Below, piece by piece: positions 1 through 47,140 of a stretch of DNA of 64,000 bases (positions are counted from its first letter, which is position 1; each line of letters starts with the position of its first letter). The position numbers were made by a program, and so were the translations under genes. The notes under the pieces were generated by a model that was not told where the DNA came from, did no database searches, and was given only the letters and a program-made list of their open reading frames with translations. Source of the stretch: Rhizophagus irregularis (taxonomy: Eukaryota; Glomeromycota; Glomeromycetes; Glomerales; Glomeraceae); NCBI RefSeq assembly GCF_026210795.1, contig NC_089435.1:1550001-1614000 (forward strand), in the 5' to 3' direction.

Positions 1-1532
1 GAATATAATAAATTTTCTACTGGAAGATTATTTGCGGTTCATGCCGCAATTGCCGCATATTCGTGATTAAGAAATTTAATAAAGTTATAAGAGAAATCAA
101 TTGATTCAACTCTGTTATTATTAATAATATCTTTATTATAGTTTCGGGTGAAACTATTTTTTCAAAATCTGAAATATTTCGCCGAAAGTATCTGAAACTT
201 CTGAACCCAAATTAAACCAAAATTATAAAAATCTAACTTTATAAACTATAAATCGGTAATTCTACAATTTGCTGTATATTTGATTGATGACTCAACTGGG
301 TATTATATTAAAAAATTACTCATCTATATACTCTGTGCAAAGGTCACACGTATGTTCGTCCGGTGTACAATATATGAGGTTAAATACAATTACTCACATC
401 GGTCATATGAATAAAATGTTACTCACGCGAAAAAAAATCAAAAAAATTGCTTTCTTATGGTGAGTTTCGTCATGAGTAAATGATTACATAATTTAAATAA
501 TATAAATATATCTCAATATCTTTATTCTTTTCTTTAGGTTTTCTTTATTTTCTTTTTTTTTTAGGTCTATCTTCTAGGTCTTCTCTTTATCACCTTTTAG
601 GCCCTTTTTCTTTACGTCTTCCCTCAGGTACTTGTATGTGGGTTGGGAGTGTGGGTTTGTGTGTAGGTGGTGTGTGTATATTTGTGTATTTCCTCGCTCT
701 TTCCCTTCTGTCGCTTTCTCTTTCCCTTTCTGGATCTTGCAATGATTAAAAAACAAATCCAATTTTTGTTACATTCGGTTATTTGACATTTGGATTATTG
801 CAAGACGAAATTGCCAAATGATTATGGACGATATTTTGATCAAAAAACTCCCAGCCTCCGAGATTAAAAAATGATCAGGTTATTCCAAACACTGTAAAAG
901 TATTCAATCATTTTGTACTTGGATTGTTTAAATCAAATTAAATAAAATGGTCACTAAAACAAAACATAATAAAATTTCTAATATTTATCTTAATTTATAT
1001 GATTTGATCATTAATTTTGATTGTTATAATTTTTATGCCATGGATATTTGCAATTTGGATTGGCCTCGTGTAATCAAGTCAAAATTTTTTTATCCTGTAC
1101 TTTGACTTGAATTCTGGTTTAAGTGATCGTTCTCACTCTATTAACTCATGTCTCTTCATATAATTAAAAACAAAGCTTACAATTACTATGGCCATATAAA
1201 TTTTACTTGTACATAAATGTTTCAGCTATATATATTCAATATAAAAAAAATATTATACCAAATCAAAAAATTGTTTACATACAATTGAAAATAGGATATG
1301 TCTATTACCTATACTGTGGCGCAGTAGTCACGTGAAAATCTAGGTGATCGCAACTTGGAAAACGGTAACCGTTAAAGTCTGTCGCGTTTATTTACTCACG
1401 AAAAATAGCAAATTCAGTGTTACAAAAAAAAAGGAATATGATTGAAAGGGTTTTAGAAAATAATTGTTTAAATTTGAATGTTAAAAATTTCTTCAACGTG
1501 CTAATCCTAAGAATGTTATTATGGAAAACTTT
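1..1532. other. Intergenic, no gene seen
   Basis: AT-rich sequence without a convincing coding region. A pyrimidine-rich stretch lies at about 520-730, and its antisense open frame is low-complexity and not gene-like. A CACGTG hexamer occurs at 1329. Confidence 0.6.
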
Positions 1533-3074: not shown

Positions 3075-4031
3075 ATGATTACACTGAATTACCGCCGTTT
3101 TCAAAATGATAACATTGATGGAACTTTTGGTATCGATATTGACAAAATTAAGTCAGTAAAAGAACTGAAAAAAATCATCAAGCTTTATTTAGATGAGAAC
3201 AACCTTTTACTTCAAAAAGCACTTCTCTTGATAAATACAAATATTATCAAATATGGAATTATCAAAGGATCGTATTCATATTTCCCTGTATATATCTGGT
3301 AAGAATTGGATGATATTTTTATATCGCTATTTATTTACTTATGCTTAATATATATATTTTATTTTATAAAGTTGAGGGAGAAATTGCACATAAATTAAGC
3401 GAAATTGAATCGGGAGATAAAATTATTCAGGTTTTGTATTCAACATTCTCTTAGATATTCATAATATTTTTTATATTTTCTTATATTTTTTAACTTATCA
3501 TTATTATTTTTGGTTGCGTACAAAACAGGGTGTTTGATTATAGGAGACAAATAGGAGATAAAGCATAAAGGCAAGGAAATATGATGCAGTGTTTAAAACC
3601 ATCAACAATAAATTACATTTAGTTTATGTTGATCATGCGTGTATATCCTTTGCTGAGTTTATTCGAAAAGTGACAGATTATACAAAACCGGTACCAGATA
3701 TTCGAAATTGAAAATTAATTATGTATCTTGGAAAGATTTTTGTGAAAAGGTAATATTTATAGAATCTGTAATGTCCATCAAGAATGCCCTACAATCTATT
3801 CTAAATGATCTGAACGTGCGAGATATTTTCTTTGGTATCGAATCTCCACGTCAAAAAACGGTGAGTAACACTCCGGCAATGAAATTACAAGTGATCGGAG
3901 ATTCAGATCATTTATATTGTATGGAGAACATTTACAGAAATAATTCCAAGAAATCTCTCTCCACGGAGTATATAGTTACACCAGCTATTATTTTTCATGT
4001 AATCCGTAAGGGTGTGATTCCATGGATTTAG
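3075..4031 (+). pseudogene. Relic of a Crinkler-header-like gene
   Basis: The first open piece (3075-3302) starts MITLNYRRFQ and has FGIDIDKIKSVKELKKIIK. This resembles the ubiquitin-like header of CRN (Crinkler) proteins, in which a short beta strand is followed by an IDID..S..LK..IK helix. A second open stretch at 3562-3711 and a third at 3708-4031 lie in different frames, with stops between them. I see no splice sites that join all three well. The header likeness is from memory of the family and moderate; the downstream parts are unassigned. Broken, probably non-functional. Confidence 0.4.
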
Positions 4032-5755
4032 AGATGCATTGTTTTGTCAAGAGTATATGGAAAGAATTGAAAAATATATACCAAATATCGAGTGAAATGA
4101 TCGTCGGGTAAAATAAAGATTATCGGTGAGACGATTTCGGCAAAATAAATGCGTCCCATATGAATGAAAAAACTGTCCAACTAAGAAGTTTCAAATTGAT
4201 GAAAAGTTTAAGTGTTATTAAATATTTTTATTATTATTGGTTTATTATAACGTTTAAAATTTATAATTTTAACCATATTTTTAACGCTTAATAAATGAGT
4301 TTTTTTAAGTATATGGTATTCAGAAAATATAGAAAATATATAAAAGATTTTTACTTTCAAAACTATTTGTGTATTTGTGAGTATAACAGAATTTTTGAAT
4401 AAAATAAAAAATAACCAGAAAATCAAAAGCTGAAATGGCTCTACAGTCTACATTAACATGTTTTTATAATGGAAATAGTGACTATTTTTAATTCCGATCA
4501 CATAAGATGGTGATGACACAGGTATATTTTTATTTCTGAGTGGTGACGACACGGGTAAAAATCTAACCAAATAATTAGCTATCACGTGATATTTTGCCAA
4601 TCTTTTTGAGAACGTATTAAAGGTTTCTATCATTAAAAGAAGTTTATTCTATGATCTTGTATTAATTACACATTTTTTCTTGTATTTTGTCACGATCGTC
4701 ATCAATTTCAACCATTTTGAAAACGATGGACGCCGGACAGGTATGGAGTGCACTCAGTGCCGTAATTATTTAACTCATAAAAGGAATTTTTTGCGAAAGT
4801 TTAAATGCGACTTGAGTAAATATTAAATCATAAACAAAGTCAATAAGTAAATATTTCTTTTTTATCCTAATGATGTCATATATCCAATATGGCTATATTA
4901 ATTGCATACCAAGTTGCAGATTAGGCAACTATAATTTTCTATTTTATAAATTTTCCTAATTAGAGCTTCAATCATGTCAAACTATGGAAAATCGTCTCCT
5001 TTTTTTTCTTTATAACCACAGATCCATAATCGAAACCGTAGATTTTCATTCAGATTTTCAGTTTAATCTGAAACATGGGTTATTGAATTAGTGTGATCAG
5101 GTGATTTTTTATTCAATTACAGTATAACGAAAAAACCGAAAATAACCAAAAATAACCAAAACCCCATACAAATTATATTCAAAAAGTTATTCCAAATAAT
5201 TAATGGTCAATTATTTTGTGTTCTGGTCACTTTTTAATACAGTAACCACTAATGTAATAATAAGAATTACATGAAAATAAGTTGGAAATCGATTATAGCC
5301 ATAGTTTATTCGTAATTTGCAAACCAATGTTTAATTATGAGAATAATGAGATAGTATTTGGTCGCGGGTGCATAAAAAGCGTGCTTAAATATTTCAAAAA
5401 CTACAATTGAAAAAAAAAGTGAAGAAATCTTGAGGAAATGAAAAAAAAATTAGTAACTTCTCATAAACATACATTGTTATTAGTTCTCTTCAACGTCTTT
5501 ACATTTATTAAAAAAACAACTGAACATTTTCAATATTATAGTATATTAGAAAATTATTATCTATTAGGCTTAATTATAAATAAGGGTAGGGAAAATTCTA
5601 GAAACAAACGTAATTTAAGTGATCATGTGGACATATAAACTCGCCACTGTATCACGTTCAAAATATTTTTTTGCTGTTCGTTTCGTATTTTCGCTAGCAG
5701 TATATAACTTGGTGGTTTCGATTCCTACGATTTCTATAATCGATTTCTACCTCTC
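4032..5755. other. Intergenic
   Basis: No convincing gene. The short open frames at 4208-4633 and 5438-5638 are AT-rich and featureless. A CACGTG hexamer lies at 4583. Confidence 0.5.
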
Positions 5756-6042
5756 GTTCTCCCTTCCCTTTCCCTTCCCTTTCGTTCTCCCCTTCCCTTT
5801 CGTATTCCCCTTTCCCTTTCGTTCTCCCTTTCCCTTTCGTATTCCCCTTTCCCTTTCGTTCTCCCTCCTAGCCTCCCTTCCCCTTTCGTTCTTCCATTTC
5901 CCTTTCGTTCTCCCCTTCCCTTTCTCATTCCTTTTCCTTTCGTTTCCCTTTCCCCCTGATCAATGTTGCTGCACCTCAACGTGGTGATCAGGTGGCAACA
6001 AGTTTTTAAAAAGACTTGGCTAAGTCAGCAACAAATACTTAA
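5756..6042 (+). repeat. Polypyrimidine minisatellite plus inverted-repeat end
   Basis: At 5756-5958 the plus strand is almost pure pyrimidine, built from variants of CCCTTTCGTTCTCC. It is followed by GCTGCACCTCAACGTGGTGA and a tail ending GTCAGCAACAAATACTT. The last 90 bases match 1752-1866 in inverted orientation. Long open frames on both strands here are artefacts of the simple repeat. Confidence 0.75.
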
Positions 6043-7517
6043 ACTAAAAAAAAATATAATACAACTATTAAGAAAATTCAAGTGTCCCTCAATCGTTCTT
6101 TTTTTTTATAATAGAAAAGGATCTCAAGTGGGTCTCGCATAATTTGCTGATGTTACTATGATAAGTACACTTCGATATTTTTTTTTTGTCGATAGAAATG
6201 AAATGTTGAAAATATTGAAGAATGCCGGTTATCATCTTTCTAAAAGGTCATCATTTTTGGAATCTACTGCTAGTAGTCGACATCAACAAACGAAAATTCT
6301 TTTCGTTAAAAGAAATTCAAAATATATTAATAATCATTATTACTAAAAGCGACTGATTATAATTATATTTTATTTTCAGCAATCTATATTTATAATAGTA
6401 AAATATTTATTCGCGTTAAATAGTCATTAAAATAGTTTATAGGGTTTATAGGCTATTGACTTAATGTTATAATTTAAGTGAAATTGCATTGACTTTACTT
6501 TTTCATAATGATAAAAAGTGAGATATTTTAACAAAAAATCTGTACGATGGTTTCATTCCGAAAAGTTGAATAGCTTGATGAAAATTGTTTTTTAGCCGGA
6601 ACCCTATTTTTTATTCTATAAAATTATAATGTTATGTATTGCGCTTTTTCTCTAGTCAATAAAATTAATTCCACACTTTAAAAAAAATTTATTCTATTTG
6701 CTTATGGTATTTCTTAAATTTGTAGTAGTGTCTTCATTTTTCTCTAAGTTAATTTAATGATAATAGCTAGCATAATTCGATTTTATGTAATTATGAAATT
6801 AAGAGGTATAGTACTAAATGATAAACGCATGTGATATTAATTCTAGACGAACGAATCGAATAGAATAAAATTACTCGTTCGTTATTGAATACATAGACGG
6901 CGGGACATTAGAAAAACATTTAAGAACCAATGTTAGAACTTTAATCAAATGGGAAATTCAATTAAAAGTACGGAAAGAATAAGAAAAAAAATAAAATAAA
7001 AACGGTATACTATAATAAAAGAATTGCTACAATAAGAAGTTTTACATTGTTAATAATTATGAAGATATTATTAAATAAAGGAATGTTATGAGAAAAATAG
7101 TGAATAAGAGACATATAAAATTTGAACCATCCATAGATTATCTGAATTTTCAATTTTCGTTATTATAATAATAAAGTATTTAAAAAATTATTTCGGGAAA
7201 ATTATTTAACAATTAATTCGTAATATACCTTATTTCATAATAGTTGAACCAATTAGATAGGAAAAAAAAAAAATAAAACTAGCCAGTACAGTTTATGACT
7301 CACGATTGCATCTTTTATATATTATTTGCATCATGATCAGACATTCATCATACGATATTTTTTTTATAATCACCCATGGCATGACTAATATTGAGTTGAT
7401 TGTTAAATAAAAAATTAATAAAAATCTTTGCGTAAATAATTATACACAAACTACGCCATAATCATAAATTTATAAATAAATAAGGACGAATTTCTCGTCC
7501 CCCCATTTTAAAAAAAA
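6043..7517. other. Intergenic
   Basis: AT-rich spacer. A 62-codon open frame at 6158-6346 has no recognisable features. Nothing else is supported. Confidence 0.5.
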
Positions 7518-10130: not shown

Positions 10131-12448
10131 ATGTCCACTCTTCGATATGAATTAGTTAATGCAACATATCATAGGGCAATTTTTTTGACTGATACTAGTA
10201 TTTACAATGATATACACAAACAATTTGAATTTCAAAAACAAACAGTCCTTGCTGATAAAATTCTTACAAATGATGAAAAAATTTATGGAATAAGAAAATT
10301 AACTAAAACTTATGATCGAAATAAAGTTATTTTAAATTCAGGAACAAGAAGAATTTGTGAAAATTGTAACCAAGAATGTTTAGCCACATTATATTGTGAA
10401 TATTGTGTCCGAAATTATTTAAAAGAAAATTTTTCAAACTGGACATCTGGGAATGATGATATTGACAATTTAATACAGAAATGTCAAATGGAATCACTTA
10501 ATCCACAAAGGATAGTTGAATGGATTCCATATAACAATTTGAAAAATATTAATTATTTAACAAAAGGTGGATTCTCTGAAATCTATACAGCGGGTTGGAT
10601 TAACGGATATTATGAAGAATGGGATTCTGAAAAAAAAACAATTAAAAGAGTTAAAAGACTTGGAATACAAAACTTTGTAGGATATGTAGCACTTAAAAAA
10701 TTAGAAAATGTTGAAAGTGCAAATCAAAGTTGGTTTGAAGAGGTTTGTATAATTTTATTTGAAATTTATTTATAAAATCCTGTTTTTTTGTATTAACAAT
10801 AGCATTGTTGTCATTTAGGCTAAATCACATTTAACTATAAGTAATAAATGGTCAGGTGTTGCTCGATGTTTTGGTTTAACACAAAATCCATCAAATGGAT
10901 ATTATATGCTTGTAATGTGTAAAATGAATATAGATTTAAGAAAATATTTACAACAAAATCATAATCAACTTACATGGAAAGATAGAATGAAAATTATTAA
11001 TGAAATAACTCTTGCGCTTTATTATATTCATAAAGAGAAAGCAATTCATAGAGATTTGCATTCTGGAAATATATTGTATTCACAATTTAATGATAAGTGG
11101 TATATTAGTGATCTTGGATTTTGTGGACCTGCTGATAAATCTTCAACAAGTATATATGGAAATCTTCCTTACATAGCACCCGAAGTTATTGTTGGAAGAG
11201 AATATACTTTTGCATCTGATATTTATAGTATTGCAATTCTTATGTGGGAAATTTCATCTGGACAAACACCATTTATAAATTATGAACATGAAAATGATAT
11301 TGTAATGAATATTATTAACGGTATAAGGGCAAAAATAGTGCCAGGAACTCCATTAGAATATAAAAATTTAATGAAAGAATGTTGGGATGCTGATCCATTA
11401 AAAAGACCTGACGCTGATGCACTTGAATCCAAAATAAACCGAATTAATTTATATTATCAAAATATGTCAGATGAAGTATTCAAATCAGAAATGGATAATT
11501 TAGAAATGAATAAAGTAGAAGAAAATTATACAAGTAGCAGGTTATTTACAAGTAAAATTCACAACTTTGGAAATCTACCTGAACCAAGAAATGCAACAGA
11601 AGGTATAAGCGTATAATATTTATTAATGAATGTATTTATTTTAAAATACATTATTATTAATGTTATCTCTTATTATAATAGAAGAACAAGAAGGTATAAC
11701 CATATAAATAATAATTTCTACTATTTTATTTGGTTACTAAAATAATTCACTTTATTTTGCTACTAATAGCGTTTCATAGTAAATTGTATGATTTTAACAT
11801 TCCTAACAATAGTAAGTATTTATTAATATTACGGCATTAAATTACCATATAATAATGTTTAATTTAATAATTGTCATTTATTTCAGTTAACGATTTTAAT
11901 AAATCAAATAAGCAGAATAGTAGTAACAAATCATCAAAAATAGTTACCATTTTTAGAGGTAATGAATCTTAATTATTGCCAAATCAAGATTGAATTTTAT
12001 AATTTTTATATTAAATCAATATCATAAATTTTAGATAGTAATAAAAAATTATCTAAATTATTTAAAAAGTTGCAAATAAATTCAAATGGTAAGAATAGTA
12101 ATAAATTACTAACAAATTAAACTCATTATTATATCAATTTCATTTATTTATTAAACGCGACTTTTATTTAAATTTAGATGATGAAAAAGAAATAACTCAA
12201 CAACGAATAAAAGGGAAAAATATTAATGTTGATGGTAGGTGAAAATTTTACGTAATAACAAATAATCCTTATACTATTTTAAGTATGTTTATTTTCTTAT
12301 AGATGATGACGAAATATATAATAATCCAAATTTTCATTCAAAAGAACAAGATGAACTGGAAATTCCCGATGGTAAGTTCTTAAATAAATAAGGTTTCTTT
12401 TTAAAGCAACTTAATTAATTTAATTTTTTATCTTTAGATGGATTTTAA
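10131..12448 (+). CDS. TKL-like protein kinase with zinc-type N-terminus and microexon tail
   Basis: Nine exons are predicted: 10131-10742, 10819-11602, 11682-11693, 11770-11811, 11887-11958, 12035-12088, 12178-12234, 12303-12371 and 12438-12448, about 570 residues. The N-terminus has a Cys cluster (CENCNQECLATLYCEYC), then SGNDDIDNLIQ. The kinase domain follows: glycine loop LTKGGFSEIYTA, lysine in VALKKLE, catalytic loop IHRDLHSGN, DLG in place of DFG, and IAPEV. All key residues are present. The first intron is phase 0. Every later intron is phase 1 with GT-AG ends, so each tail exon (12, 42, 72, 54, 57, 69 nt) is a multiple of three. The last exons encode an acidic tail (DDDEIYNNPNFH). 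Role inferred: cytosolic signalling kinase of the family expanded in these fungi. The tail exon model is inferred from splice sites and from its paralogue at 31964. Confidence 0.88.
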
Positions 12449-19376: not shown

Positions 19377-22300
19377 TTAGTTTTCATCTGTTTCAATATC
19401 TAGATAATTAATTAAATAAAATTAATTACAAATAAACAATTTGCAAATTACTTTGTTTTGTGTAATATAATACATACCTAATGAATTAATATCATTACTA
19501 ATTCTACAATTGTCCAAACATTCACTTTCAAGATATTTATTCAATTTTTTACTAGTAAAATCAAGTACACGACTTGTATAACATGCTTGTGGATGAGATT
19601 CTGTAACAAGGTTGTTATTCCCAATTGGTGTATTTATAAATTCCATAACATACCTTTTTAATTCTTTACTAATATCTTCAATTTCCTTTTCATAAGGAAG
19701 AATAATCCACTCTTCAATAATATTTAAAACTTCTTTAGAAGATGGCCTTTTTAATGGATCTTCATCCCAACATTTTTTCATCAAATCTACATAACATTGT
19801 GGAGTATTTTTAATGATTTTAGGACGTCCACCTCTACAAATACTTAAACTAAGTTGAAAATCATGTGCTTCATCATTAAATGGTGGCACTCCAGATGTAA
19901 ATTCCCACATAATCATAGAAAAACTATAAATATCACTAGCTGGAGTAAAATGCTTGCCTCTTAAAATTTCAGGTGCCATAAATGGTATAACACCATAAAT
20001 TTCATATTTTTTCAAAAATGATTTTATAGGTTGACATAATCCTAAATCACTAATATAGACTTTAACATTTTCATAGTTTTCACTTTCTTCATTTTTTTCA
20101 CTTTCCTTATTTTCTTCACTTTCATTTTCCTTATTTTCTCCATTTTCTTCATCTTTATGATTTAAAATGTTGCCATCATGAAAATCACAATGAATAAGCT
20201 TTTGTTTATGTATCTCATTAAGCCCAGAAATAATTCTATGTAACATATGTAATTTTTGCTTCCAATCATTTTTGATTATTTTTGTCAAATTTCCTCTAAA
20301 ATTACCTTTGTTTGCATAATCCATTACTACCATATAACGCAAAGTATCTGGGGATCTTGTAAATCCATAAAAATTAATAATATCATATGAATTTAAACAT
20401 CTTTCATGATTTTTCCACTAGTAAAACATAATAATAATATATTAGTATAAATAAATTATAATTTAGTAAAGTTAAAAAAGAAGAAATAAATAATATATTA
20501 TCATACTTCATTTAAAAATTGGTTTGAATTTTCATTTAAATTATTGTGACATTTGAGAACTACTTCTTTATTTCCATTATTGTTTAACCAAGTAGCTTTG
20601 TATATAATGCTAAATCCTCCTTTATCAAGATATACAATATTTTTAAACTCATTATAAGGAATCCATTTTAAATTTTTTTCAAGAATAAATTTGTCTATAT
20701 TTTCATCTCCACATCTCCTAAATCTATAAATTTAAATAATTAGTAAAATTATATTAAAGTTTATATAGTTTATATTAAAATTTACACTAAAATTTAAAAT
20801 TAGAATTAACACTTACCCTAAAATTTAAATAAGAATTTAATATAATATAAATCTTAGTTTTTGTACTAAAATACATATATAATAAACTATAATTTACAAC
20901 TTACCGACTAAAGTAACAGATATTTTTTTAAAATAAGAATTCAGTTGATTAAAACTATAACTGAAATTTAACATTACTATATAACTTATAACTTACTTGC
21001 TATATTAATAAATAATGTTTTAAATAAAAATTTAGTTTAAAATTATATAAAAATATTATATAAACATGTAATAGTAAAATTAAATAAATAACTTACTCTC
21101 TATATTATTAAATAATTATTTTTAAAAAGGAAATTAAGTTAGTCTGAATTATAAGAAATATCATATAAATATATAAGTAATAAAATAAATAACTTACTCT
21201 CTATATTATTAAATAATTTTTTTCAAACAAAAAATTTTAGTTAGTCTGAAAATATTTTATAATAATCAAATTAAATAAATAACTTACTCTCTATATTATT
21301 AAATAATTTTTTTAAACAAAAAATTTAGTTAGTCTGAAAATATTATATAATAATCAAATTAAATAAATAACTTACTCTCTATATTATTAAATAATTTTTT
21401 TTAAATAAGGAATTTAGTTAGTTTAAATTATAAGAAAATATAATATAAATACGTAATAATAAAATTAAACAAATGACTTACTTCCTGTATTATTAATATT
21501 TTTTTTTTTTTTTTAAACAAGGAATTTATTAGTTTAAATTATATGCCATTATTATATAAATATATAACAATAAAATTAAATAAATAACTCACTCCCTATA
21601 TTATTAAATAATTTTTTGAATGAAAAAGTAAATTAGTTTAGATTGTATGAAAATTTACGTAAATATATATAATAATAGAATTAGTTAAATAACTTATTAC
21701 TTCCTATAACTTACCACCTATATTATTAAATAATTTTAATAAAAAATTTAGTTAGTTAAATTATATGTAATAGTTATGCAGCCTAATTATTTAATAAACT
21801 GCAAGCATAATGATACAGTTATTGAAAGGGGAGTAACACCCTGTAGGGCGTATCTAATAACTGTAACATATTGTATAAATATGTAATAGAACTAAATAAA
21901 TAACTTACAAACTATATTAATAAATAATGTTTTATATAAAGAACGTTAGTTTAAATTATATACAGTAAAATATTTTGTAAATATATAATAATATAAATAA
22001 ATAACTTACGCCCTATATAATTAAATATTTTTTTTTAATTATTTTAATTAGCAATTTACTTAGTATAAATTATATGTAAAATTATATAAAAATAACTTGC
22101 ATGCTATATTATTAAATAAATTTTTAAGTAAGAAAATTATATGTAAATATTATATAAATATGTAAAGTAATAGAATATAATAAATAACTTACAAGCTATA
22201 TTATATTATTAAATATATTTTTGTTTAAATAAAGAATTTAATTAGTTTAAATTATATTTAAATATTTAAATAAATATGCAATAACGAAATTAAATAGTAA

Positions 22301-25300
22301 ATAACTTACTTCCTATATTATCAAATAATTTTTAGGTAAAGAAATTATTTAGTTTAAATCATATGAAATATTATAGAAGTATAATTAAATAAATAACATA
22401 CCCCCTATATCATTAAATAAAGAATGTAAGTATTATGTAAATAGGTAATAATAAAATCGAATAAATAACTTACATGCTATATTATTAAAATAAAGGATTT
22501 AGGTTAATTATATATAAATTATATAAATATTATAAATGTATAATAATAAATTAAATAAATAACTTACTCCCTATATTAATAAGTAATAAAGAATTTAGTT
22601 ATTTTATTTTATATAAATATTATGTAAATATGTAATAATAGAATCAAACAAATAACTTACAAGCTATATTATTAAATATTTTTTTTTTTTAAGAATAAAG
22701 AATTTAGTTAGTTTAAATTATATATATATAAATATGTAATAATAGAACTAAATAAATAACTTACGAACTATGTTATAAATAATTTTTTAAATAAAGAATA
22801 TTTTAGTTTATATCATATATAATAATTGAATGAAATAACAACTTCAATTACCCCCTATATTATTAAGCAGTATTTTTAAATAAAGAATTTAGTTAATTTA
22901 AATTTTATGCAAATATTATATCAATATATAATAATAGAAATAAATAAAAACTTACAAACTATATTGTTAAATAATTTTTAAATAAAGGAATTTAGTTACT
23001 GATTTAAATTATATATAAATATTGTATCATAAAATTAAATCAATAATTTACCTACTATGTAATTAAATAATTTTTACAAAAGAAATTTAGTTAATTTAAA
23101 TTATGTGTAAAATAATATAAATGAAAAACTTATAACTTACATTCTAAAATAAATTGCCAAATAATTTTAAATAAAGAATTTAGTTAATTAAATTATGTAT
23201 ATATTATATAAATATGTAATAATAGAGTTAAATAGATAACTTACCCCCTATACAATTGAATAATATTATTTTAAATAAAGAATATAAATATTATATAAAT
23301 ATGTAATAAACTAATAATAGAATTAAATAAATACTTACAAACTATGATATTGTTAAAAAAATTTAATTAGTTTAAATTATACAGTAAATACTAGTGTATA
23401 AATATGTAATAATAATGATAGAATTAAACAATACTTACAAACTATATTATTAAGGAATTTTTCAAAAAATTTAGTTAGCTTATCATGTTATATATAAATA
23501 TTATATATTAGGATAAAATAACAACTTACAAGCTATATTATTATTTTTAAATAAAGAATTGAATCAGTTTAAATTAAATGTAAAAATTATATAAATAGTA
23601 AATAACTTACCCACTATATCATTAATAATATTTTAAAAGAAGAATATGAGTATTATATAGAGATATAGTAATAGAATCAAATAAATAGCTTACTTACTAT
23701 ATTATTAAATAATTTTTTAAATAAAGAATTTAGTTAGTTTGATTATGTATAAATATTTAATAATATAAATAAATAAATAACTTACAGGCTATATTATTAA
23801 ATAATTTGGTTTAAATAAAAAATATGTTAGTTTCAAACTTTAAATTATGTATAAATATATATATAATATACATATAATATGTTATTACTTACCCACTATA
23901 TTATTGAATAATATTTTAAAGAGTTTAATTAAATTATATAAAAATTGTAAATTTGTAATCACCATAAATATAAATAAATAACTTACAAACTATAATTTTT
24001 TAATAAAATATTTAGTTAGTTTAAATTTATATAAGCATCATACAAATATGCAATAATAAAATTAAATAAATAACTTACTTCCTATATTTTGAATGATTTT
24101 TGAAAAAAAGAATTTTGTTTAAATTATATGTAAATGTTTGGTATTAGGACATTTCACTAAAAGCCATTTTGTCAAAAAATAGTCTCTAGCCTGAGTTTTT
24201 CATAGCATAATATTAATTATTGACCCTATTTTTTGGTGAAACATCCTGGAAATAGCTTTTGACAAAATATCCCATAACCATAAATGTTATATAAATAATA
24301 ATAAATTTAATTATTAACCTACCCACTATATTATTATAAATAATTATAATAATTTTTTAAAGATTTCAGTTTAAATTATATGCAAATATTATGTAAATAC
24401 ATAAATTATAAAATTAAATAAATAACTTACAAACTGTATTATTAAATAATTTTTTCAATTAAAATATTAATTAGTTAAATTATATTTAAATATATATTAA
24501 ATAATTAAATTATAGTAACTTACCAACTAAGAGTTTAAATAAATAATATAATTAATTAAATTATATGCAAATACTATTATATAATAATAGAATTAAATAA
24601 TTTGACTTACCCACTATATTATTATTAAATAGTTTTTTATAGTTAATATAAATTGTATATAAATATATATTAATAGAATCAAATATATAACTTACATGCT
24701 ATATATTAAATAAAAAATAATTGAGTTAATATAAATTATAAAATTATATATAAATAATTAGAATATAATGCAATAATAAAGTTAAATAACTTACATACTG
24801 TATTATTAAATAATTTTTTAAATAAAGAATTTAATTAGTTTCAATTATATATAAATATTATACAAATATAATAATAGAATTAAATAGGCACTTACAAACT
24901 ACATAATTAAAGAATTAATTAGTTTAGATTGTATATAAATATTATATAAATATGTAAATATTAACTTACAAGCTATTATTAAATAATTTTTAAATAAAAT
25001 ATTTAGTATAATTATATGTAAATATTATATAAATAATAGAATTAAATAAATATCTTACAAACTATATTATTAAATAATTGTTTATAAAAATAAAAATTTA
25101 GTTAGTTTAAATTATAAATAAATATATAATAATATAATTGAATAATAACTTACTCCCTATATTATTAACCAATTTTAAATGTAGTTAATTTAAATTATAT
25201 GTAAATATCATGCAAGTTTATAATGACAGAATTAAATAAATTACTTACAAACTATATTTTAACCAATTTTTTAGACAAAGAATTTAGTTAATTTGAACAT

Positions 25301-28300
25301 GATATAAATAAATAATAGAATTAAATAAATGACTTACATGCTATTATAAAATAATTTTTAAATGAAGATTTTAATTAGTTTTAATTATATTTATCATATA
25401 AAAATGTAATAATATAATTAATAAGTAAATGATTTACTTTCTATAATTTTTAAATAAAAAAATTTAATTAGTATTATAAATATGTAATAATAGAATTAAT
25501 AGAATTAAATAAATGACTTACTTTCTATATTATTACATAATTTTAAATAAAGAATTTAATTAGTTTTAAATAATAAATAAATATATAATAACAGGATTAA
25601 ATAAATAACTTGTAAGTTATAACTTACCAGCTAAAATAAATTATAAAATAATTTTTTAAATAAAAATTTGGTTAATTTAAATTATATGTAAATATTATAT
25701 AAACATATAATAATAGAATTAAATAACTTACGAACTATATTATTTTATAAATAAAGAATTTAGTTAATCAAATTATATATAAAATTATTAATAGAATTAA
25801 ATAAATAACTTACAAACTATATTATTATGTAATTTTTTAAATAAGTACTTAGTTAAATTGCATGCAAATAATATAATAATAGAATTAAATAAATAATTTA
25901 TAACTAACCACCTAAAAGATAAAAAACTTAGTTAAGTCAAATTATATATGTGAGTATATAATAATAGAATTAAATAAATAACTTACAAGCTATATTATTA
26001 AATAATTTTTTAAATAAGGAATTAAATTAGTTTAAATTATATAAATATATAATAGGATTGAATAATAACTTACAAGCTATATTATTAAATAAAAAATTTA
26101 TTTAGTATAAGTTATATGTAAATATGATGTAAGTAATGAAATTAAATGACTTACAAGCTATATTAGTAAATAGTTTTTTAAATAAAAAATTCAGTTGATT
26201 CAAATTATATGTAAAAATTATATAATAGTAGAATTAAATAAATAACTTACCCTCTATATTATAAATAAGTTTAAATAAAAAATTTAGTTAACTTAAATAT
26301 GTGAATATAATTATAGTACTAGTAAATATTAAAATATTAACTTACTTTCTATATTATTAGTTAATTTCCAATAAAGAATTTAATTAGTTTAAATTATACA
26401 TAAATATTATATAAATATATAATGATAAATAATTAACTCACTCCCTATATTGTTAAGTAGTAAAAAATTTAGTTAGTTTAAAATATATGCAAATATTATA
26501 CAAATATGTAATACCAGAATTAAACCAATAACTTACAATCTATATTATTTAATTTTTAAACAATGATTCAATTAGTTTAAATCATATGTAAATATGTAAT
26601 AGTAATAGAATTAAATAATAACTTACAAACTATTATATTATTAAATAATTTTTTAATTAAGAATTTAATTAGTTTAGATTGAATTTGTAATATATGTAAT
26701 AATAGAATTAAAAAAAAATAATTTACCTCCTATATTATTAAATAATTTTTTAAATAAAAAATTTAGTTAGTTTGAATGAGTAATAGTACAAATATATAAA
26801 ATAACTTACTCCCTATATTATTGAAAAATTTAGTTAATTTGAATTATATAAATATTATATAATAATATTATTATATAAATTAATAATAGAACCAAATAAC
26901 TTACTTTCTATATTATTGAATAAAAAATTTAATTAATTTATATTATATATACTTATATTATGAAAACAATAAATAACTTATAACTTACTGACTAAAAGAA
27001 ATTACCAAATAATTTTTTTAATAAAGAGAATTTAGTTAGTTTAAATAATAACATATAAGTATTATATAAATATGTAATAATAGAATTATTCAAACAACTT
27101 ACCCCCTATATTATTAAATAATTTTAAAATAAAGTTAATAAATATTATATAATAAATATGTAATAGTAAAATTAAATAAATAACTTACGAGCTATCATAT
27201 TATCAAACAATTTTTTGAATTTAATTAGTTTAAATTAAATATAAATATGTAATAATAGGATTAAATAAATAACTTACAATCTATATTATTATTATTAAAT
27301 AATTTTTAAGTAAATAATTTAATTATATTAATATTATATGTAAAAATGTAATAATAATATTAAATAACTTACAATCTATATTATTAGTAATTGTTTAAGT
27401 AAAGAATTTAGTTAATTTAAATTCGATGTAAATATTATGTAATATATAATATTATGATAAATAAATAACTTATAACTTACCAGCTAAAAAATTTCAAATA
27501 AAGAATACTCAATTTAGTTAATGTACATGTAAGTATTATATAAATATATAATAATAGACTTAAATCGATAACTTACAATCTATATTATTAAACGAATTTA
27601 ATTAGTTTAAATTATATATAAATAATATTGACTATGTAATATTAGAATTAAATAAAATGTTAACTTACGAGCTATATTATTAAATAATTTTTAATTTTTA
27701 AGCAAAGAATTTAGTTAATGTAATTATATGTGAACATAATAAAAGTATATAATAAAAGAATTAAATAAAGCAATTTCCATTTATACACGGGATGTTCAAG
27801 CAAAAAGGGGACGTCTAAAGCGGAGCAGTTTTGGCCGGCATTACGGCATTAAGGAATTTACTATGATCACGTGATTCTACTCCGCTTTAGACGCCCCCAA
27901 AAAAAGTACGTAAATTTTTATGCCGATCACTTAATGTTGGCTGAAAAAAATAAAAAATTTTTTGTTAAATAAGTCTAAAAATGATATATTTTCAGAGATA
28001 CACTTACCGTCCATTTTTTTAAAGTTATATTTATTTTTGTTATACTGACACGTGATATGTGCTTGAAGTACCCGTGTATATTAAAATTTTCTTAAATAAA
28101 TATCTTACGAACTATATTATTAAATGATTTTTAAAATAAAAACTTAGTTAGTTTAAATTATATGTGAATATTATAATGTATAATAAATAAATGACTTACT
28201 TTCTATGTTATTAATAAATGATTTTTAAGCAAACAATTTAGTTAGTTTAAATACATGCAAATATTATATAATTATATAACAATTAAATAAATTACCCCCT

Positions 28301-29216
28301 ATATTATTATAATTATTTTAAATAAAAATTTCAGTTAACTTAAATTTATAAGTATTATATAAATATGTAATGGAAAATAACTTACTCTCTGCATTGTTAA
28401 GGAATTTTTTAAATAAAGAATTTAATTAGTCTAAATTATATATAAATATTATATAAATATGTAATAATAGATTAAATAAATAATTTACCGCCTATATTAA
28501 TAGATAATTTTAAATAATAAATTTAATTAGTTTAGATTATATAAAATATCATGAAATAAATTAGCTCATACTTACGAACTAAAATAAATCATCAATAATT
28601 TATTAAGAAAAGTATTTTAGTTAGTTAATTTATATTACCGTATATGCAAATGCATGTAATAATAGAATTTAATAAATAACTTAGAACTTACCGACTAAAA
28701 AAAATTGCCAAATAATTTTTTAAAATAAAGAATTTATTTTTGTTTAAATTACTGTACATAAGTAAGATAACATACGACTTACACCCTGTAATATTATTAA
28801 TTGTTAATTAGTTAAATATAAATATAATACAGATATATACTATAAATAAATAATATATATCTTACAATCTAATAATTTAAATAAAGAATTTATAATCAGC
28901 GTTAGTCGAGTTTTGTAAATTATCAAACAATAAATATAATATTATTAAGTAATGTAACTTGCCATCTGGAATATAATTAATTATTAAGTAGTTATTTAAA
29001 CAAAGAACTTCAGTTAGTTATTTGAAAATAATGTGAAATAAAGTACTAAAAGTTTAACTTACTAACTATAGTATTGTCGATCATTAAATGAATTATTTAG
29101 TTATATAGAATATGAAAAAATAAGTAATTTCATTATTATTCAATTTTAAGATAATCTATTGACTTACGAGCCAAATATTTAATGTGCCTTTTATCTTTAT
29201 CATCACTGTCAGCCAT
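19377..29216 (-). CDS. Kinase gene assembled from about 82 one- to three-nucleotide microexons
   Basis: Predicted exons: 29216-29168 (49 nt, MADSDDKDKRHIKYLA plus one base), 81 exons of exactly 3 nt, one of 1 nt (20817), then 20723-20507, 20417-19478 and 19399-19377. The total is 1473 nt, or 490 residues. The joined frame is open. Residues 56-73 read ISFLSLVVLGILALMAFF, a credible membrane helix, preceded and followed by Trp. A Trp-rich stretch and GRKKKKT follow, then the kinase. Kinase motifs: DENIDKFI and WIPYNEF lead-in, YLDKGGFSIIYKA loop, VVLKC lysine, IHCDFHDGN catalytic loop (Cys replaces the usual Arg of HRD), a Glu/Asn-rich insert, DLG and MAPE. The tail ends DIETDEN after a phase-1 intron. 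The 3' exons are firm. The microexon part is inferred from splice signals, phase and openness, with no transcript evidence. If the array is not spliced this way, only the exons below 20724 remain. Confidence 0.7.
20817..22854 (-). other. Microexons 62-82 of the array
   Basis: In order: 22852 GGG; 22765 TTC; 22661 CTT; 22568 GGA; 22474 CAT; 22402 GGG; 22310 GAA; 22193 CTT; 22101 CAT (GC donor); 22010 GGC; 21909 TTT; 21715 GTG; 21593 GGA; 21482 GAA; 21376 AGA; 21288 AGA; 21198 AGA; 21097 AGA; 20997 CAA; 20905 TCG; 20817 G. They add residues 78-98: Trp-rich, then GRKKKKT. The four AGA units sit in the least diverged part of the array (recent duplications). The last exon is a single G between TTTTAG and GTAAGT. 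A weaker one-base site exists at 20786. Confidence 0.75.
21780..21870. mobile_element. Small hairpin insertion in an array intron
   Basis: A roughly 80-bp segment with GATACAGTTATT and AATAACTGTA in inverted orientation and a GC-richer core (GGGGAGTAACACCCTGTAGG). It accounts for the 191-bp intron between triplets 21909 and 21715. Exact ends unclear. Confidence 0.45.
22956..24972 (-). other. Microexons 41-61, encoding the membrane helix
   Basis: In order: 24970 CTT; 24896 TTT; 24795 TAT; 24696 CAT; 24611 TGG; 24524 TTG; 24431 TTT; 24323 TGG; 24079 GAA; 23987 TTT; 23893 TGG; 23786 CCT; 23694 TAA; 23611 TGG; 23530 CTT; 23439 TTT; 23339 TTT; 23245 GGG; 23141 AAT; 23052 TAG; 22956 TTT. They add residues 57-77. 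The TAA and TAG triplets would be stops if read as codons. In phase 1 they are split into harmless TTA-ATG and TTA-GTT. Confidence 0.75.
24147..24274. mobile_element. MITE inside an array intron
   Basis: Imperfect terminal inverted repeats: the left end is GGACATTTCACTAAAAGCCA, and the right end read in reverse starts GGGATATTTTGTCAAAAGC. It lies between triplets 24323 and 24079 and explains the doubled spacing there. The flanks suggest a TA target. Confidence 0.6.
25059..26729 (-). other. Microexons 22-40 of the array
   Basis: In order: 26727 GAG; 26627 TTT; 26537 ATT; 26442 GGA; 26346 AAA; 26251 AGG; 26155 CTT; 26074 CTT; 25987 CTT; 25909 GTG; 25814 TTT; 25732 TTC; 25628 CTG; 25522 AAA; 25438 AAA; 25338 CAT; 25249 TTT; 25154 GGA; 25059 TTT. 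They add residues 38-56: a basic part, then the start of the hydrophobic helix. At 26251 the acceptor reads TAGAG, so a shift to the second AG would shorten the exon to one base and break the frame. Confidence 0.75.
26810..29065 (-). other. Microexons 1-21 of the array
   Basis: In transcript order, given as lowest plus-strand coordinate and minus-strand triplet: 29063 TTA; 28963 ATG (GC donor); 28866 ATT; 28783 GGT; 28692 TCG; 28576 TTC; 28489 GCG; 28386 AGA; 28296 GGG; 28200 AAA; 28109 TTC; 27669 CTC; 27577 ATT; 27481 CTG; 27373 ATT; 27278 ATT; 27189 CTC; 27103 GGG; 26989 TCA; 26905 AAA; 26810 GGA. Each codon takes its first base from the preceding exon. They add residues 17-37, mostly polar and charged. 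Between 28109 and 27671 a transposable insertion lengthens the intron, and a possible decayed unit sits at 27770-27780. Confidence 0.75.
27782..28080. mobile_element. MITE (nested inverted repeat) inside an array intron
   Basis: Ends are TATACACGGGATGTTCAAGC and GCTTGAAGTACCCGTGTATA, with a probable TA target. A second inverted repeat is nested inside: GGGGACGTCTAAAGCGGAGC at 27816 and its reverse complement near 27870-27895, around a CACGTG at 27868. The inner part belongs to the same family as 34281-34693. Confidence 0.75.
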
Positions 29217-31963: not shown

Positions 31964-34089
31964 ATGACTGATATTCGTAAAGCTAATGCTGCAATTAAAA
32001 GAGCATATACCTTAATAGATTTTAGTATTTACAATGATGTACATAAACAATATGAATTTAAAAGACAAGCAATTCTTGTTGATGATTCACTTATAGAAAA
32101 TGAAAAATCTGAAGCAATAAGAATTTTGACTGCAAATTATGATGAAAGCAAAATTATTTATAATGAAGGAATAAAAAGAATTTGTAAAAATTGTAACAAA
32201 GAATGTTTGGCCACATTATATTGTGAATATTGCGTTCGAAATTATTTAATAGCAAATTTTTCAAATTGGACATCTGGAAATGATAATATTGATAATTTAA
32301 TACAAGATAGTCAGATGAAAGCAATAAGCCCAAATCTAATACCAGAATGGATCCCATACAATAATCTTCAAAATATTGAATATCTAACAAAAGGTGGATG
32401 CTCTGAAATTTATATAGCAGAATGGGTTAATGGAAGTTATGATGAATGGGATTTTAAAGAACAACGATTAAAAAGATATGGTGAACATTTAGTAGTACTT
32501 AAAAGACTAGAAAATATCGAAAATGCAAATCAAAGTTGGTTTGAAGAGGTTTGTAATATAGAAATATTTTAAAAAGTAATAACTGAACTTTGTGCCTAAA
32601 ATTTTAATATAATTTTTGTAGGCTAAATCACATTTAACTATAAGCAATAGATGTCCAGAAATTGTACAATGCTATGGATTAACACAAGATCCATCAAATG
32701 GAAGTTATATGCTTGTAATGAATAAGACAGATACAGATTTAAGAAAATATTTACAACAAAATCATAATCAACTTGCATGGAAGGAAAGAATTCAAATTGT
32801 TGCTGATATAATTCTAGCACTTTTACGAGTTCATAATGAGAATGCAATTCATAGAGATTTGCACTCCGGGAATATATTATTCATGGTATTTGATAGTAGA
32901 TCTTTTATTAGTGATCTTGGATTTTGTGGACCTGCAAATAAACCGTTAAAAAGTATATATGGAAATCTTCCTTATATAGCGCCTGAGGTTATTATTGGAA
33001 AAGAACAGACTTTTAAATCTGATATTTATAGTATTGCAATGCTTATGTGGGAAATTTCATCTGGACGACCACCATTTATTAATTATGAACATAATTACGA
33101 TCTTGCTATGAATATTGTTAATGGTATAAGACCAAAAATTATACCAGGAACTCCTTTAGAATATAAAGATTTAATGATACAATGTTGGGATGCTGATCCA
33201 TCAAAAAGGCCTGATATTATAACACTTCGCAGTAAAATAAGAGAAATCAATTATTTTTATCAGAGTAAATCAAACCAGTCAGAAGAAAATAATGTAAGTA
33301 GCCTGGAAAATTATACAAGTACAAGCAAGCTTTATCAATTTGGAACTTTTCCTGAACCAAGAAATGCAACAGAAGGTAATATCCCAGTTTTTACATTTTG
33401 GTCAATTATTTGAAGAGTATTGTTATTAATAATATTATTTTAATTAAAATAATAGAAGAACTAGAAGGTAATAAATTATTTTAAATTTTCTTAATTTAAA
33501 TGATTGTGATAATTAATTATTTTTTGAACTCTTAGCATTTTACAGTAAACCTTTTAACTCCTATATTCCTGATAACAGTAAGTATTTTAGATTAATATTA
33601 AATCTATTAACTTATTTAATTTGATACTGTTAGTTGATGATTTTGATAAATTAAATAATGATCAGAATAGAACATCAAGGATGAATAGTATATTTAAAGC
33701 TAATTTGTTCAATATAAATTTTATTAACTTTAAGAAGTAGTCAAATCAATAAGTAATAATGTTTATTAAATTATTTAGTAAATAGTAATAGATTATTCAA
33801 AATATTTAAAAAGAATTTTCAAGATGGTATATTATAGAGAAGAAATAATGCAACAACAAAGAAAGAATATTTATATTAATAGATTATTTAATGTCATTTT
33901 AATGATTGTTTTTATTCATTAATTCTAATTTATTATAATGTAGATGAGGATGAAGTATACAATAATCCTAACCTTCATTCAGAAGATCAAGATAAATTGG
34001 AAATCTCTGATAGTAAGGGAATTTATTTTATACTAATGTTGAAACTTTAAATAGCTATTAACCTTATTTTTTTAATGTATTTAGATTAA
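31964..34089 (+). CDS. TKL-like protein kinase, paralogue of 10131-12448
   Basis: The first two exons (31964-32548 and 32622-33375) have the same junctions as the paralogue. N-terminal Cys cluster CKNCNKECLATLYCEYC, kinase loop LTKGGCSEIYIA, lysine in VVLKRLE, IHRDLHSGN, DLG and IAPEV are all present. Tail exons 33456-33467 (12 nt), 33536-33577 (42 nt), 33944-34012 (69 nt) and 34085-34089 match the paralogue's sizes and phase 1. The middle of the tail has decayed. The 72-nt exon equivalent (from 33634) lacks its GT donor. The 54-nt equivalent survives as 33781-33828 (48 nt). The intron before the 57-nt equivalent has shrunk to 11 bp and leaves a stop. Because all tail exons are frame-neutral, skipping those pieces still gives an open frame. 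Kinase domain looks active. Confidence 0.85.
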
Positions 34090-45042: not shown

Positions 45043-47115
45043 ATGTCTACCTCACAGTCAACGGGTATGACACGTATGACTCGTAGTGTGACTCGTAAAG
45101 GAACGCTACAGCCAGGAGAACAAGTTATTGATATTTCTACAGGGTCAACTTCAACTGCCTTTCAGGATATTGACCCCTTTAAAAAGCCATATAATCCCCC
45201 ACCGGCTACTAATAAAGATGATGAAGGGTTTGAAACAGTTCAATCAAAAAATAAAAAAGCAAAAAAAGAGGATACTGTGACACAAAAACAAAAAGAAGTC
45301 ATGAAGGAGGTCGTCCAAGCAACATTGGGAAGAAAACAGTCTCAACAGAGCGAAACTGCGGCTGCAAATGAGTCACGTGACAATAATCATCCCATTCAGC
45401 CGAATTTAACCAAAAATATCACCCCAATGGATCTTGACCAAAACAATGACGATCATAATGCAGGAGATGAAACCAATGAAATTCCTGATGATGAAGATGA
45501 TATTATTGATATAGCAATTATGGCTGAAAAGCCACAATTTAAAGTTTATTTTGATTTGGCACAAATTCCTGGAAAAAGCCATATTGGAAAAGTAAACCTC
45601 GTGAAAAAACTGCTTGCTCAACATCATATTGCATGTTTTCCAGGTAGAATTGATGCCAAGAATATTGAAATAGATGGAACTATCCAAAAACAGCATTATT
45701 ATGTTTTTAAATGTGCTAATGAAACAGCATTTGAGAAAATTTTACGTGAACCCATTCCAACTAAAATTAAAATTAAACAACAAGATGGTAAAATTGTGGA
45801 ACAAGATTTGAATGTTACGTTTAACAAAATAGAAAAAAAAGAAATTCCGGCTGAAACTCAACAGAATATTGATGAACACATGATTTTTGTAAACAAGATT
45901 CCTGCAGAATTGAGGAATTATCAGATTAAAGGTGTTTTTGGTACATATGGAAATATAGTAAACTTCAAAACTTTTATGAGAGGGCAGTATCAAAATGCTA
46001 TTATCACATTTGATGACAAATCCGCAGTCCAACCATTTTACTATACTTGGGGCATCTTTATTAACCAACATTTGGTTAGGGTTAGACCCAAAGTTATGTC
46101 AGAAGATAAACTACATGAAAGAACAGCATATTACATTAAACTTGCAGGTTTACCACTAAATACATCAGCATTTGATTTAAGAGGATTTATGGAACGGTAT
46201 AATGTTAAATATCTTGACATTCCAAGAAATTCTCGCTTTAATTATCCATTACGCTATTGTTTTGTTTATTTTCAGAACGAAGAAGATTTTCAAATCGCAA
46301 CCAAACAAGCATTCTGTTTTAAAGAACACCAATTATATTGGACTGATGTAGATATGAAAACTTGCCACAGGTGTGGCAGTCCTGAACATCTTGCTATGCA
46401 CTGTGATCATGAAGACAATCGTCCAAGATACAAAAACAGAAAAGAAGTACTTAAAGGTTTTAGACAAGCTAGACAAGAAAGAAATAAAAAATATGGAAGC
46501 TATGCACAAGCAGCTCAACAAGGACGTAATAGAAGACAAAGTTTTAATTCACGAAGACCTTGGAATAGAGCGAATTTATCACATGATAATAAATCACATG
46601 ACCAAAATAATGTATTTTCTATTGACAAACCAAAACACCAGAGGCAAATGTCGATGACTAAGAATACAATTCAGGATCGTAATGTAGCCTTTACCATTAC
46701 TAAAGCAATGGAAAAATTAGACCAACTTTGTAAGAATTTTACAGTTTTACAAAATGAACAACGTTCAATTAGTAATGAACTTAAAAGTATTAAAGTTAAA
46801 CAAAATACCAAAGATACAACTAAACCAAATACAACAGTTAATAAAGCAGTGGGATCTAGTACTAAAGGAGTTACCAGAAATAATAACAAACGCATTCTCT
46901 TAGAAGAATCTTCAGATGATTCAACTCATGAATTATCAGACCTTGAAGAACGCTTTAAACAATCTGAACAAAAATCTCAAAATATGGCTACTGAACTTAC
47001 AGATCTCAAAGGTACTATGCAAAAATTATTACAATTATTCCAATCATCAAATGATAATCATAATGTTGAGGGGGACAACACTTATGATGAAGAAATTATT
47101 GATATTAGTCAATAA
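45043..47115 (+). CDS. LINE ORF1, RNA-binding gag-like protein
   Basis: 690 residues. An acidic, low-complexity N-terminus is followed by two RRM-like segments: one near residue 279 (MIFVNKIPAELRNYQIKGVF) and one near 366 (YIKLAGLPLNTSAFDLRGF). A CCHC zinc knuckle, CHRCGSPEHLAMHC, lies at about residue 440. A basic region and a C-terminal coiled-coil-like stretch (LSDLEERFKQSEQKSQ) follow. Presumed to bind LINE RNA and form the ribonucleoprotein. It stops 25 bases before ORF2. Confidence 0.9.
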   Translation: MSTSQSTGMTRMTRSVTRKGTLQPGEQVIDISTGSTSTAFQDIDPFKKPYNPPPATNKDDEGFETVQSKNKKAKKEDTVTQKQKEVMKEVVQATLGRKQSQQSETAAANESRDNNHPIQPNLTKNITPMDLDQNNDDHNAGDETNEIPDDEDDIIDIAIMAEKPQFKVYFDLAQIPGKSHIGKVNLVKKLLAQHHIACFPGRIDAKNIEIDGTIQKQHYYVFKCANETAFEKILREPIPTKIKIKQQDGKIVEQDLNVTFNKIEKKEIPAETQQNIDEHMIFVNKIPAELRNYQIKGVFGTYGNIVNFKTFMRGQYQNAIITFDDKSAVQPFYYTWGIFINQHLVRVRPKVMSEDKLHERTAYYIKLAGLPLNTSAFDLRGFMERYNVKYLDIPRNSRFNYPLRYCFVYFQNEEDFQIATKQAFCFKEHQLYWTDVDMKTCHRCGSPEHLAMHCDHEDNRPRYKNRKEVLKGFRQARQERNKKYGSYAQAAQQGRNRRQSFNSRRPWNRANLSHDNKSHDQNNVFSIDKPKHQRQMSMTKNTIQDRNVAFTITKAMEKLDQLCKNFTVLQNEQRSISNELKSIKVKQNTKDTTKPNTTVNKAVGSSTKGVTRNNNKRILLEESSDDSTHELSDLEERFKQSEQKSQNMATELTDLKGTMQKLLQLFQSSNDNHNVEGDNTYDEEIIDISQ

Positions 47116-47140
47116 TTTCATATATTTTTCATTTTAATTT

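Follow-up and report, generated by a model that had tools for sequence, protein, structure and literature searches.

Can a gene specify part of its protein one codon-sized exon at a time? The question is raised by a protein kinase gene on the minus strand of a 64-kb stretch of the genome of Rhizophagus irregularis (contig C7, NC_089435.1, bases 1,550,001 to 1,614,000), which is the window analyzed here, in this one species. We consider it very probable, judging from the DNA, that the N-terminal segment of the product is encoded by 81 consecutive single-codon exons, all of which are included in the main mRNA. We observed the anatomy of this array, its frame logic, its conservation in paralogues, and an avoidance of stop codons that is confined to adjacent junctions. 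The first-pass annotation had placed on the minus strand 81 sites at which an acceptor AG, three bases, and a donor follow one another; all of these coordinates were reproduced, and a chain finder blind to reading frame found none missing and none extra. The 86 exons and 1,473-nt open reading frame (ORF) that it had also proposed were matched exactly when the exons were rejoined in silico, giving 490 codons and a stop. In this model, which is built from sequence and not from transcripts, 81 of the 86 exons are 3 nt long and form a single unbroken run. The features of the gene are as follows.

29168..29216, minus strand: exon 1, ATG...GCTC, 49 nt, leaving phase 1.
20905..29065, minus strand: array of 81 three-nucleotide exons, the same 81 being given by the frame-blind chain finder.
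First bases of the triplets of units 1 to 81, minus strand: 29065, 28965, 28868, 28785, 28694, 28578, 28491, 28388, 28298, 28202, 28111, 27671, 27579, 27483, 27375, 27280, 27191, 27105, 26991, 26907, 26812, 26729, 26629, 26539, 26444, 26348, 26253, 26157, 26076, 25989, 25911, 25816, 25734, 25630, 25524, 25440, 25340, 25251, 25156, 25061, 24972, 24898, 24797, 24698, 24613, 24526, 24433, 24325, 24081, 23989, 23895, 23788, 23696, 23613, 23532, 23441, 23341, 23247, 23143, 23054, 22958, 22854, 22767, 22663, 22570, 22476, 22404, 22312, 22195, 22103, 22012, 21911, 21717, 21595, 21484, 21378, 21290, 21200, 21099, 20999, 20907.
28489..29065, minus strand: units 1 to 7, which with exon 1 encode L-N-D-W-F-V-R.
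27672..28108, minus strand: array intron of 437 nt, enlarged by an inserted palindrome-like element (by eye).
24082..24322, minus strand: array intron of 241 nt, enlarged, apparently by insertion.
21718..21908, minus strand: array intron of 191 nt, enlarged, apparently by insertion.
20817, minus strand: 1-nt exon (G), taking phase 1 to phase 2 ahead of the kinase exon.
20507..20723, minus strand: kinase exon 1, entered in phase 2 (A TTT AGG AGA ...).
19478..20417, minus strand: kinase exon 2, inside which the NCBI model OCT59_027144 splices an extra intron; the paralogue P0002 codes through that stretch.
19377..19399, minus strand: last exon, with the stop codon.

At the exon 1 site the paralogues carry three separate parts, namely an ATG exon, exon 2, and the first triplet, which is mostly CTC; in exon 1 of the window gene these are apparently fused. 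The predicted joined sequence reads GCACATTAAATATTTGGCTCTTAATGATTGGTTCGTTCGCGAGAGGGAAATTCCTC from the end of exon 1 through the first 12 triplets and GTGGGAGAAAGAAGAAGAAGACAATCGGATTTAGGAGATGTGGAGATG from the last 9 triplets through the 1-nt exon into the kinase exon. Within the array a hydrophobic 19-mer, ISFLSLVVLGILALMAFFW, has a mean hydropathy of 2.49, matched by 0.14% of 5,000 triplet-order shuffles; RKKKK is encoded farther along, past it. This segment may be a membrane anchor. None of the 17 other arrays scored reached a hydropathy of at least 1. The kinase domain is PK_Tyr_Ser-Thr (Pfam PF07714; 126.4 bits against a cut-off of 23.1), as measured on P0001, the annotated product of the window gene. 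Beside the three enlarged array introns the triplets were left intact.

Is this organization peculiar to one gene? The first-pass annotation had described a single kinase gene with an array; the kinase held up, and the single gene gave way to a family of about 100 by pattern counts plus at least one unrelated array gene. Genome-wide counts, covering 146,748,485 bases on 32 contigs, gave 1,188 matches to an adjacent-pair pattern (control, 0) and 2,903 to a strict three-unit pattern (control, 20). The single-site pattern AGNNNGTAAGT matched 9,493 times and its reversed form 5,234 times, which leaves an excess of about 4,000; a pattern for the 1-nt exon, TTTAG-N-GTAAGT-N60-90-TTTGG, matched 107 times against 8 in the control. 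Array genes number at least 20 and, by these pattern counts, probably about a hundred. For closer study we used 20 kinase genes including that of the window, with 11 to 81 triplets each and 789 triplets in total. The sample is nonrandom, being made up of the first-listed pattern loci, mostly on C1 to C3; L018 and L019 belong to another gene outside the kinase set, L038 (part of the window) was unused, and L001 to L016 were left out as separate loci.

By eye, the kinase genes share a layout in which a short ATG exon leaving phase 1 (e.g., ATGGCTCTTAGTAATGATAAAG) is followed by an exon of 3n length, the array, the 1-nt exon, and a kinase exon entered in phase 2. Simple patterns gave exon 1 matches that leave phase 1 in 11 of 12 cases and exon 2 matches that are multiples of three in 8 of 10; the exceptions and at least one of the agreeing matches (L022) are mis-picks, and the patterns picked up neither exon in the remaining arrays. 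The paralogues keep the 1-nt exon that the count of 86 exons implies, as A, G, or C. Each of the 20 arrays has a match to it on its downstream side, the base being A in 16 genes, G in 3, and C in 1. The distance is about 100 nt or less in 18 of them; in L021 and L036 it is 379 and 339 nt from the last called triplet, and these two matches are less certain. By eye, the 1-nt exon of L036 also seems to be preceded, at about 5150 to 4950 (minus strand) and after the last called triplet, by an exon of normal size, very roughly 57 nt long. Kinase exons follow 19 of the 20 arrays, the exception being L021; the query used to place them was in the wrong reading frame, and its matches still mark those exons. 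The shortest array of the sample, in a gene on C18, has 11 triplets, which with the 1-nt exon make 34 nt.

Are the splice-flanked triplets real? The chain finder scores acceptor, donor, and spacing and was trained on strict sites of the same loci; its settings were picked in the knowledge that weak donors occur, and frame was not used. Earlier triplet callers had missed units with weak donors, producing apparent phase 1 stops in the window array, L023, L024, and L030, and in later rounds in L024 and L030. The last two apparent stops, in L024 and L030, spanned calling gaps, and in the L024 gap a weak-donor unit is visible by eye. At a splice-signal score of at least 8, 790 sites were found against 3 in a reversed-sequence control (22 stretches, on which the score had been trained with strict sites). 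In the window, 64 of 81 donors are GTAAGT, 64 of 81 acceptors are ATAG, and the median length of the array introns is 91.5 nt. The earlier claim that each intron carries a donor, a branch-site-like CTAAC, and an acceptor stood for donors and acceptors and only in part for the branch site: CTAAC or CTAAT occurs in 44 of 80 window introns and in 498 of 715 family introns shorter than about 130 nt. GTAAGT donors make up 647 of 782 in the arrays and 0 of 35 in other introns of the same genes (pattern-picked). Retention of an intron would bring in an in-frame stop for 79 of the 80 window array introns. These results confirm that the array of splice-flanked triplets is real and not a product of chance. 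In L024 (about 3420 to 6600), two unit subtypes were seen by eye to be intermixed, one with TAATATAG before NNN and GTAAGT and one with AAATATTTTAG before AAG or ATG and GTAAAT.

A real array need not be an array of exons. It could be one intronic minisatellite whose triplets are leftovers or recursive-splicing (ratchet) sites, with an mRNA that joins exon 1 or 2 to the kinase exons. The units do form a tandem repeat, P0002 links exon 2 nearly straight to the kinase, and P0001 begins below most of the array, all of which this account would predict. It does not lead one to expect the spacing, however: among 707 good array donors, 680 lie exactly 3 nt from the acceptor (3 lie at 6 nt, 2 at 4 nt, and 2 at 46 nt, and 20 have none). 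Nor does it lead one to expect that elevated G+C content should be confined to the triplets, at 36.4% compared with 9.4% in intron interiors. Entropy per column was 1.86, 1.46, and 1.98 bits for the three triplet positions and 0 to 0.4 for the donor hexamer, with some single intron columns reaching 1.74 bits; the triplet thus ranks with the most variable parts of the unit.

The reading frame supplies a sharper test. If neighboring triplets are joined, a codon in phase 1 takes its first base from the end of one triplet and its other two from the start of the following one. Among 769 such adjacent junctions in the 20 genes there was no stop codon, whereas reversing the triplet order gave 37 in 769. 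Stops in phase 1 numbered 31 in 749 at offset +2 (one unit skipped), 36 in 729 at +3, 37 in 709 at +4, 35 in 689 at +5, and 38 in 669 at +6, and over the nine other offsets tested the stop rate was 4.1 to 5.7%. When adjacent junctions were read in phase 2, 125 of 769 were stops. The earlier proposal that the triplets are read as joined exons is strongly supported by this difference. In 5,000 shuffles of triplet order in the window array, the mean was 6.1 stops and a single shuffle was stop-free. Multiplied over 20 arrays, the per-gene shuffle probabilities of zero stops come to about 10^-19, a frequency of zero being counted as 1/4000; here L030 and L031, which are one gene with 4 shared units, counted as two arrays and L039 was absent, while the junction test merges the two and adds L039. 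Gene by gene the shuffle test is often weak, since 3 arrays are stop-free in any order (P = 1) and P exceeds 0.05 in 14 of 20. The strength of the frame test lies in the sum over genes and in the window array.

Avoidance of stops only between forward neighbors is hard to explain unless neighboring triplets are joined in the mRNA. Translation ties together bases that lie about 90 bp apart, and does so in a single direction; we know of nothing acting on the DNA itself that would. A noncoding repeat would not be expected to behave in this way, nor to encode LNDWF-like residues in 16 of 20 genes. There the motif (L)[NED][ND]W[FYWL] lies near the array start, each residue coming from two exons (the pattern is loose, and L035 has it only as DWY). 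The kinase would moreover be out of frame unless 3n+1 nt sat between exon 2 and the kinase exon. On this evidence we regard the intronic minisatellite as very improbable.

The same junctions bear on whether the triplets might be exons used combinatorially, with skipped subsets producing isoforms that differ by single residues, as in the micro-exon genes of flatworms. Skipping of any triplet would keep the frame, and the junctions created by a single skip are stop-free in 718 of 749 cases. However, the stop rate at these junctions (4.1%) resembles that at the other offsets (4.2 to 5.7%), so that there is no clear sign that tolerance of skipping is selected for; the junctions of full inclusion, in contrast, are completely protected from stops. 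Skipping thus seems not to have been selected to be harmless, and inclusion of every unit is likely the rule. Combinatorial use seems to us quite unlikely.

We also weighed whether these genes are dead or untranscribed through the array, which would then be a decaying relic above a kinase that starts at an internal ATG. The ATG of the public model does lie within the last array intron. Decay would have gathered stops at the junctions, though, where none of 769 was seen, and the 1-nt exon is retained. The public model is itself doubtful because it removes a stretch that is coding in P0002: OCT59_027144 cuts part of 19478 to 20417 as an intron, and the homologous residues are retained in P0002. 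That extra intron is probably wrong. A relic is, in our view, scarcely credible.

Several observations nevertheless weigh against inclusion of the whole array in the mRNA. The 20 arrays are mutually related, so that their junctions are not independent. No wobble signature was found: over 1,521 similar unit pairs, mismatch was 0.46, 0.415, and 0.544 by base, and the base that would be third in the codon (the middle one) was lowest. The annotated protein of this gene, OCT59_027144 (P0001, 391 amino acids), opens with residues translated from the last array intron (MLNFSYSFNQ), and the model leaves out all but the end of the array. The gene on C18 with the short array has P0002 as its nearest annotated protein (98% over residues 122 to 421), which passes from exon 2 through a fitted 7-nt exon (ATGGTAA, third triplet; residues D-G-K) to the kinase. 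Gene finders may yield models like that of P0002 when 3-nt exons cannot be placed; noninclusion of the array predicts the same. A second, weaker match to the 1-nt exon (T) lies 22 to 33 nt farther on in L028, L029, L031, L032, and L034, and use of both would break the frame; where two matches occur, we took the first. Searches of protein databases turned up no protein that carries a run of array-encoded residues. For the window array peptide no contiguous copy was found in the genome beyond exon 1, nor were contiguous copies of three other array peptides found, in a search without a positive control, and a joined-motif pattern occurred in the genome at the control level (2 matches versus 3). 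P0002 had also been a candidate proof of array inclusion, which was rejected because D-G-K fit the 7-nt exon.

How would such a transcript be spliced? On the reading that we favor, in which all 81 triplets are included, we infer that splicing proceeds by intron definition and that introns are removed one after another. The unit would be one look-alike intron of about 90 nt together with three coding bases; since reading is in phase 1, an intron would split every codon and each residue would come from two neighboring exons. An acceptor and a donor 3 nt apart could hardly be bound together, which argues for removal one after another; once the upstream intron had been taken out, the next donor would have gained a normal, long 5' exon. 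The base preceding the donor is nearly random across the array units, and recognition must therefore lean on the intron, with near-perfect GTAAGT donors presumably compensating for the missing exon sequence. Splicing would be constitutive and probably stepwise, and the 1-nt exon past the array would set the frame into the kinase exon.

Arrays would grow and be shuffled through duplication of intron-plus-codon units and of blocks of them; because the unit is exactly one codon, its gain or loss keeps the frame. Tandem repeats with periods of about 90 were detected in the arrays by TRF, and blocks recur at a lag of 15 units in L030 and at lags of 6, 13, and 19 in L035. Triplets were identical in 84% of within-gene unit pairs whose flanks diverged by less than 2%. 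As a control, the 15 nt adjoining the triplet were held out and pairs were binned by divergence of the farther intron. Mismatches in the triplet, near-upstream flank, and near-downstream flank were 9.4, 0.5, and 3.8%, respectively, in the 0 to 2% bin (53 pairs), 19.0, 1.7, and 9.3% in the 2 to 4% bin (49 pairs), and 27.8, 1.9, and 5.2% in the 4 to 6% bin (72 pairs); L035 provides 29, 42, and 52 of these pairs, or 123 of 174. In bins of at least 6%, triplet mismatch was 53 to 62% and that of the near flanks 19 to 25%, an excess of only about twofold. Triplets thus diverge faster than their surroundings, to a degree that varies with the flank compared and owes most to a single gene. An estimate that triplets evolve 15 to 20 times faster than introns was rejected, as the gapped intron alignments had ignored gaps and the near-flank control gives a smaller excess.

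Candidate causes of the excess are diversifying selection, homogenization of introns with residues kept apart, and relaxed constraint. It is conceivable, though we hold it doubtful, that the arrays serve a one-codon-per-cassette diversification, in which look-alike introns act as recombination substrate to add, delete, and reshuffle codons without ever breaking the frame. As each codon straddles an intron, every triplet swap would alter two residues. If this were so, fast-evolving N-terminal segments would be present in about a hundred kinases and, through an unrelated array, in the product of at least one AIG1-like GTPase gene.

The AIG1-like gene is the unrelated array gene mentioned above.

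C1:1,723,678-1,731,437 (L018 3678 to L019 1937), plus strand: array of 69 triplets in the AIG1-like gene, with introns unrelated in sequence to those of the kinase arrays.

Its unit has the form ...AAATTACCAG, NNN, GTRAGTAT.... This array is open in phase 2 (0 stops), with 3 stops in phase 0 and 6 in phase 1 when 70 triplets are listed, the last of which is probably no unit; the open phase thus differs from the phase 1 of the kinase arrays. The predicted product, MDERLWEELEESLKGLLPPTIPPPPPLPGRLPLGTKIPSPPPLPGRLP..., is proline-rich and, by eye, continues in frame into a coiled coil and an AIG1 domain. The stop test is weak here, with 0 of 69 at offset +1 and 0 to 2 at seven other offsets. The start codon of this gene would be split by an intron. 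At about position 9559 of L018 (C1, about 1729559), one unit has apparently lost its acceptor AG, with CAAACC for CAGACC; skipping it keeps the frame.

Elsewhere in the window, the plus strand of the 64 kb showed no cluster of triplet units. Two more kinase-like genes were recognized by eye from ORFs on that strand, at 10131 to 11616 and 31964 to 33413. Long ORFs occupy 45043 to 52603 and 55106 to 56764, the second resembling by eye a LINE-like reverse transcriptase, and a truncated, near-identical copy lies downstream.

If RNA confirms this organization, proteins would be assembled one codon-sized exon at a time, from some thousands of such exons in this one genome. The arrays would then be a hard test for the view that an exon must have a certain size or carry its own signals to be recognized, and nearly all splicing information could reside in the intron. 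They would offer a natural system for studying the order of intron removal, and they would show how, in an obligate symbiont of plants, a minisatellite can give rise to a protein segment that varies without loss of frame. The database N-termini of many kinases of this fungus would be wrong, as in the entries for OCT59_027144 and P0002.

How do these arrays compare with known systems? Recursive splicing with zero-length exons, also mentioned in PMC4674806, proceeds by stepwise removal through a juxtaposed acceptor and donor. In R. irregularis, by contrast, three coding bases remain between the two and are under frame selection. No description of such arrays was found in the open full-text (PMC) literature among the matches listed, a scope from which subscription journals and preprints were excluded. 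According to two reports, the micro-exon genes of the flatworms Schistosoma, Hymenolepis, and Echinococcus have consecutive exons divisible by three that are hard for aligners and annotation (PMC7653826), with exons of 3 to 81 bp (PMC10526429). The window gene likewise has runs of consecutive exons divisible by three, and as modeled it falls within the structural definition given in PMC7653826, with 86 exons where at least 7 are required. However, nearly all of its array exons are exactly 3 nt, the runs reach 81, and the introns are short (about 90 nt) and mutually repeated. The array genes here are, moreover, fungal kinases and a GTPase, with no clear sign of selected skipping. In Tetrahymena, as described in PMC6564038, leucine-rich repeat (LRR) arrays consist of tandem 90-bp exons in phase 2, constant in length and phase and expanded by duplication. 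Constant exon length (3 nt) and constant phase (1) in a tandem array are shared with what that text describes, but the exons here are 3 nt rather than 90-bp LRR exons, lie in phase 1 rather than phase 2, and belong to a kinase. The exon there is the repeated protein module, whereas in Rhizophagus what repeats is the intron, each exon being a single variable codon, and the array DNA is therefore far more repetitive than the protein.

Isolated exons of these sizes have precedents. A 1-nt exon is needed for frame in Arabidopsis APC11 (PMC4674806) and in Fusarium CYP621A (PMC12940212), and Drosophila homothorax has an isolated single 3-bp exon (PMC7392893). APC11 and CYP621A are single gene types, whereas the Rhizophagus 1-nt exon occurs at one position in 20 genes and in about 100 pattern matches, next to an array of 3-nt exons; homothorax has the same exon size, but in Rhizophagus 11 to 81 such exons stand in a row. 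What is new is the combination of one-codon exons, as many as 81 of them in a run, a tandem unit made up of repeated introns, a 1-nt exon that is conserved, and, on pattern counts, about a hundred such genes in a single genome.

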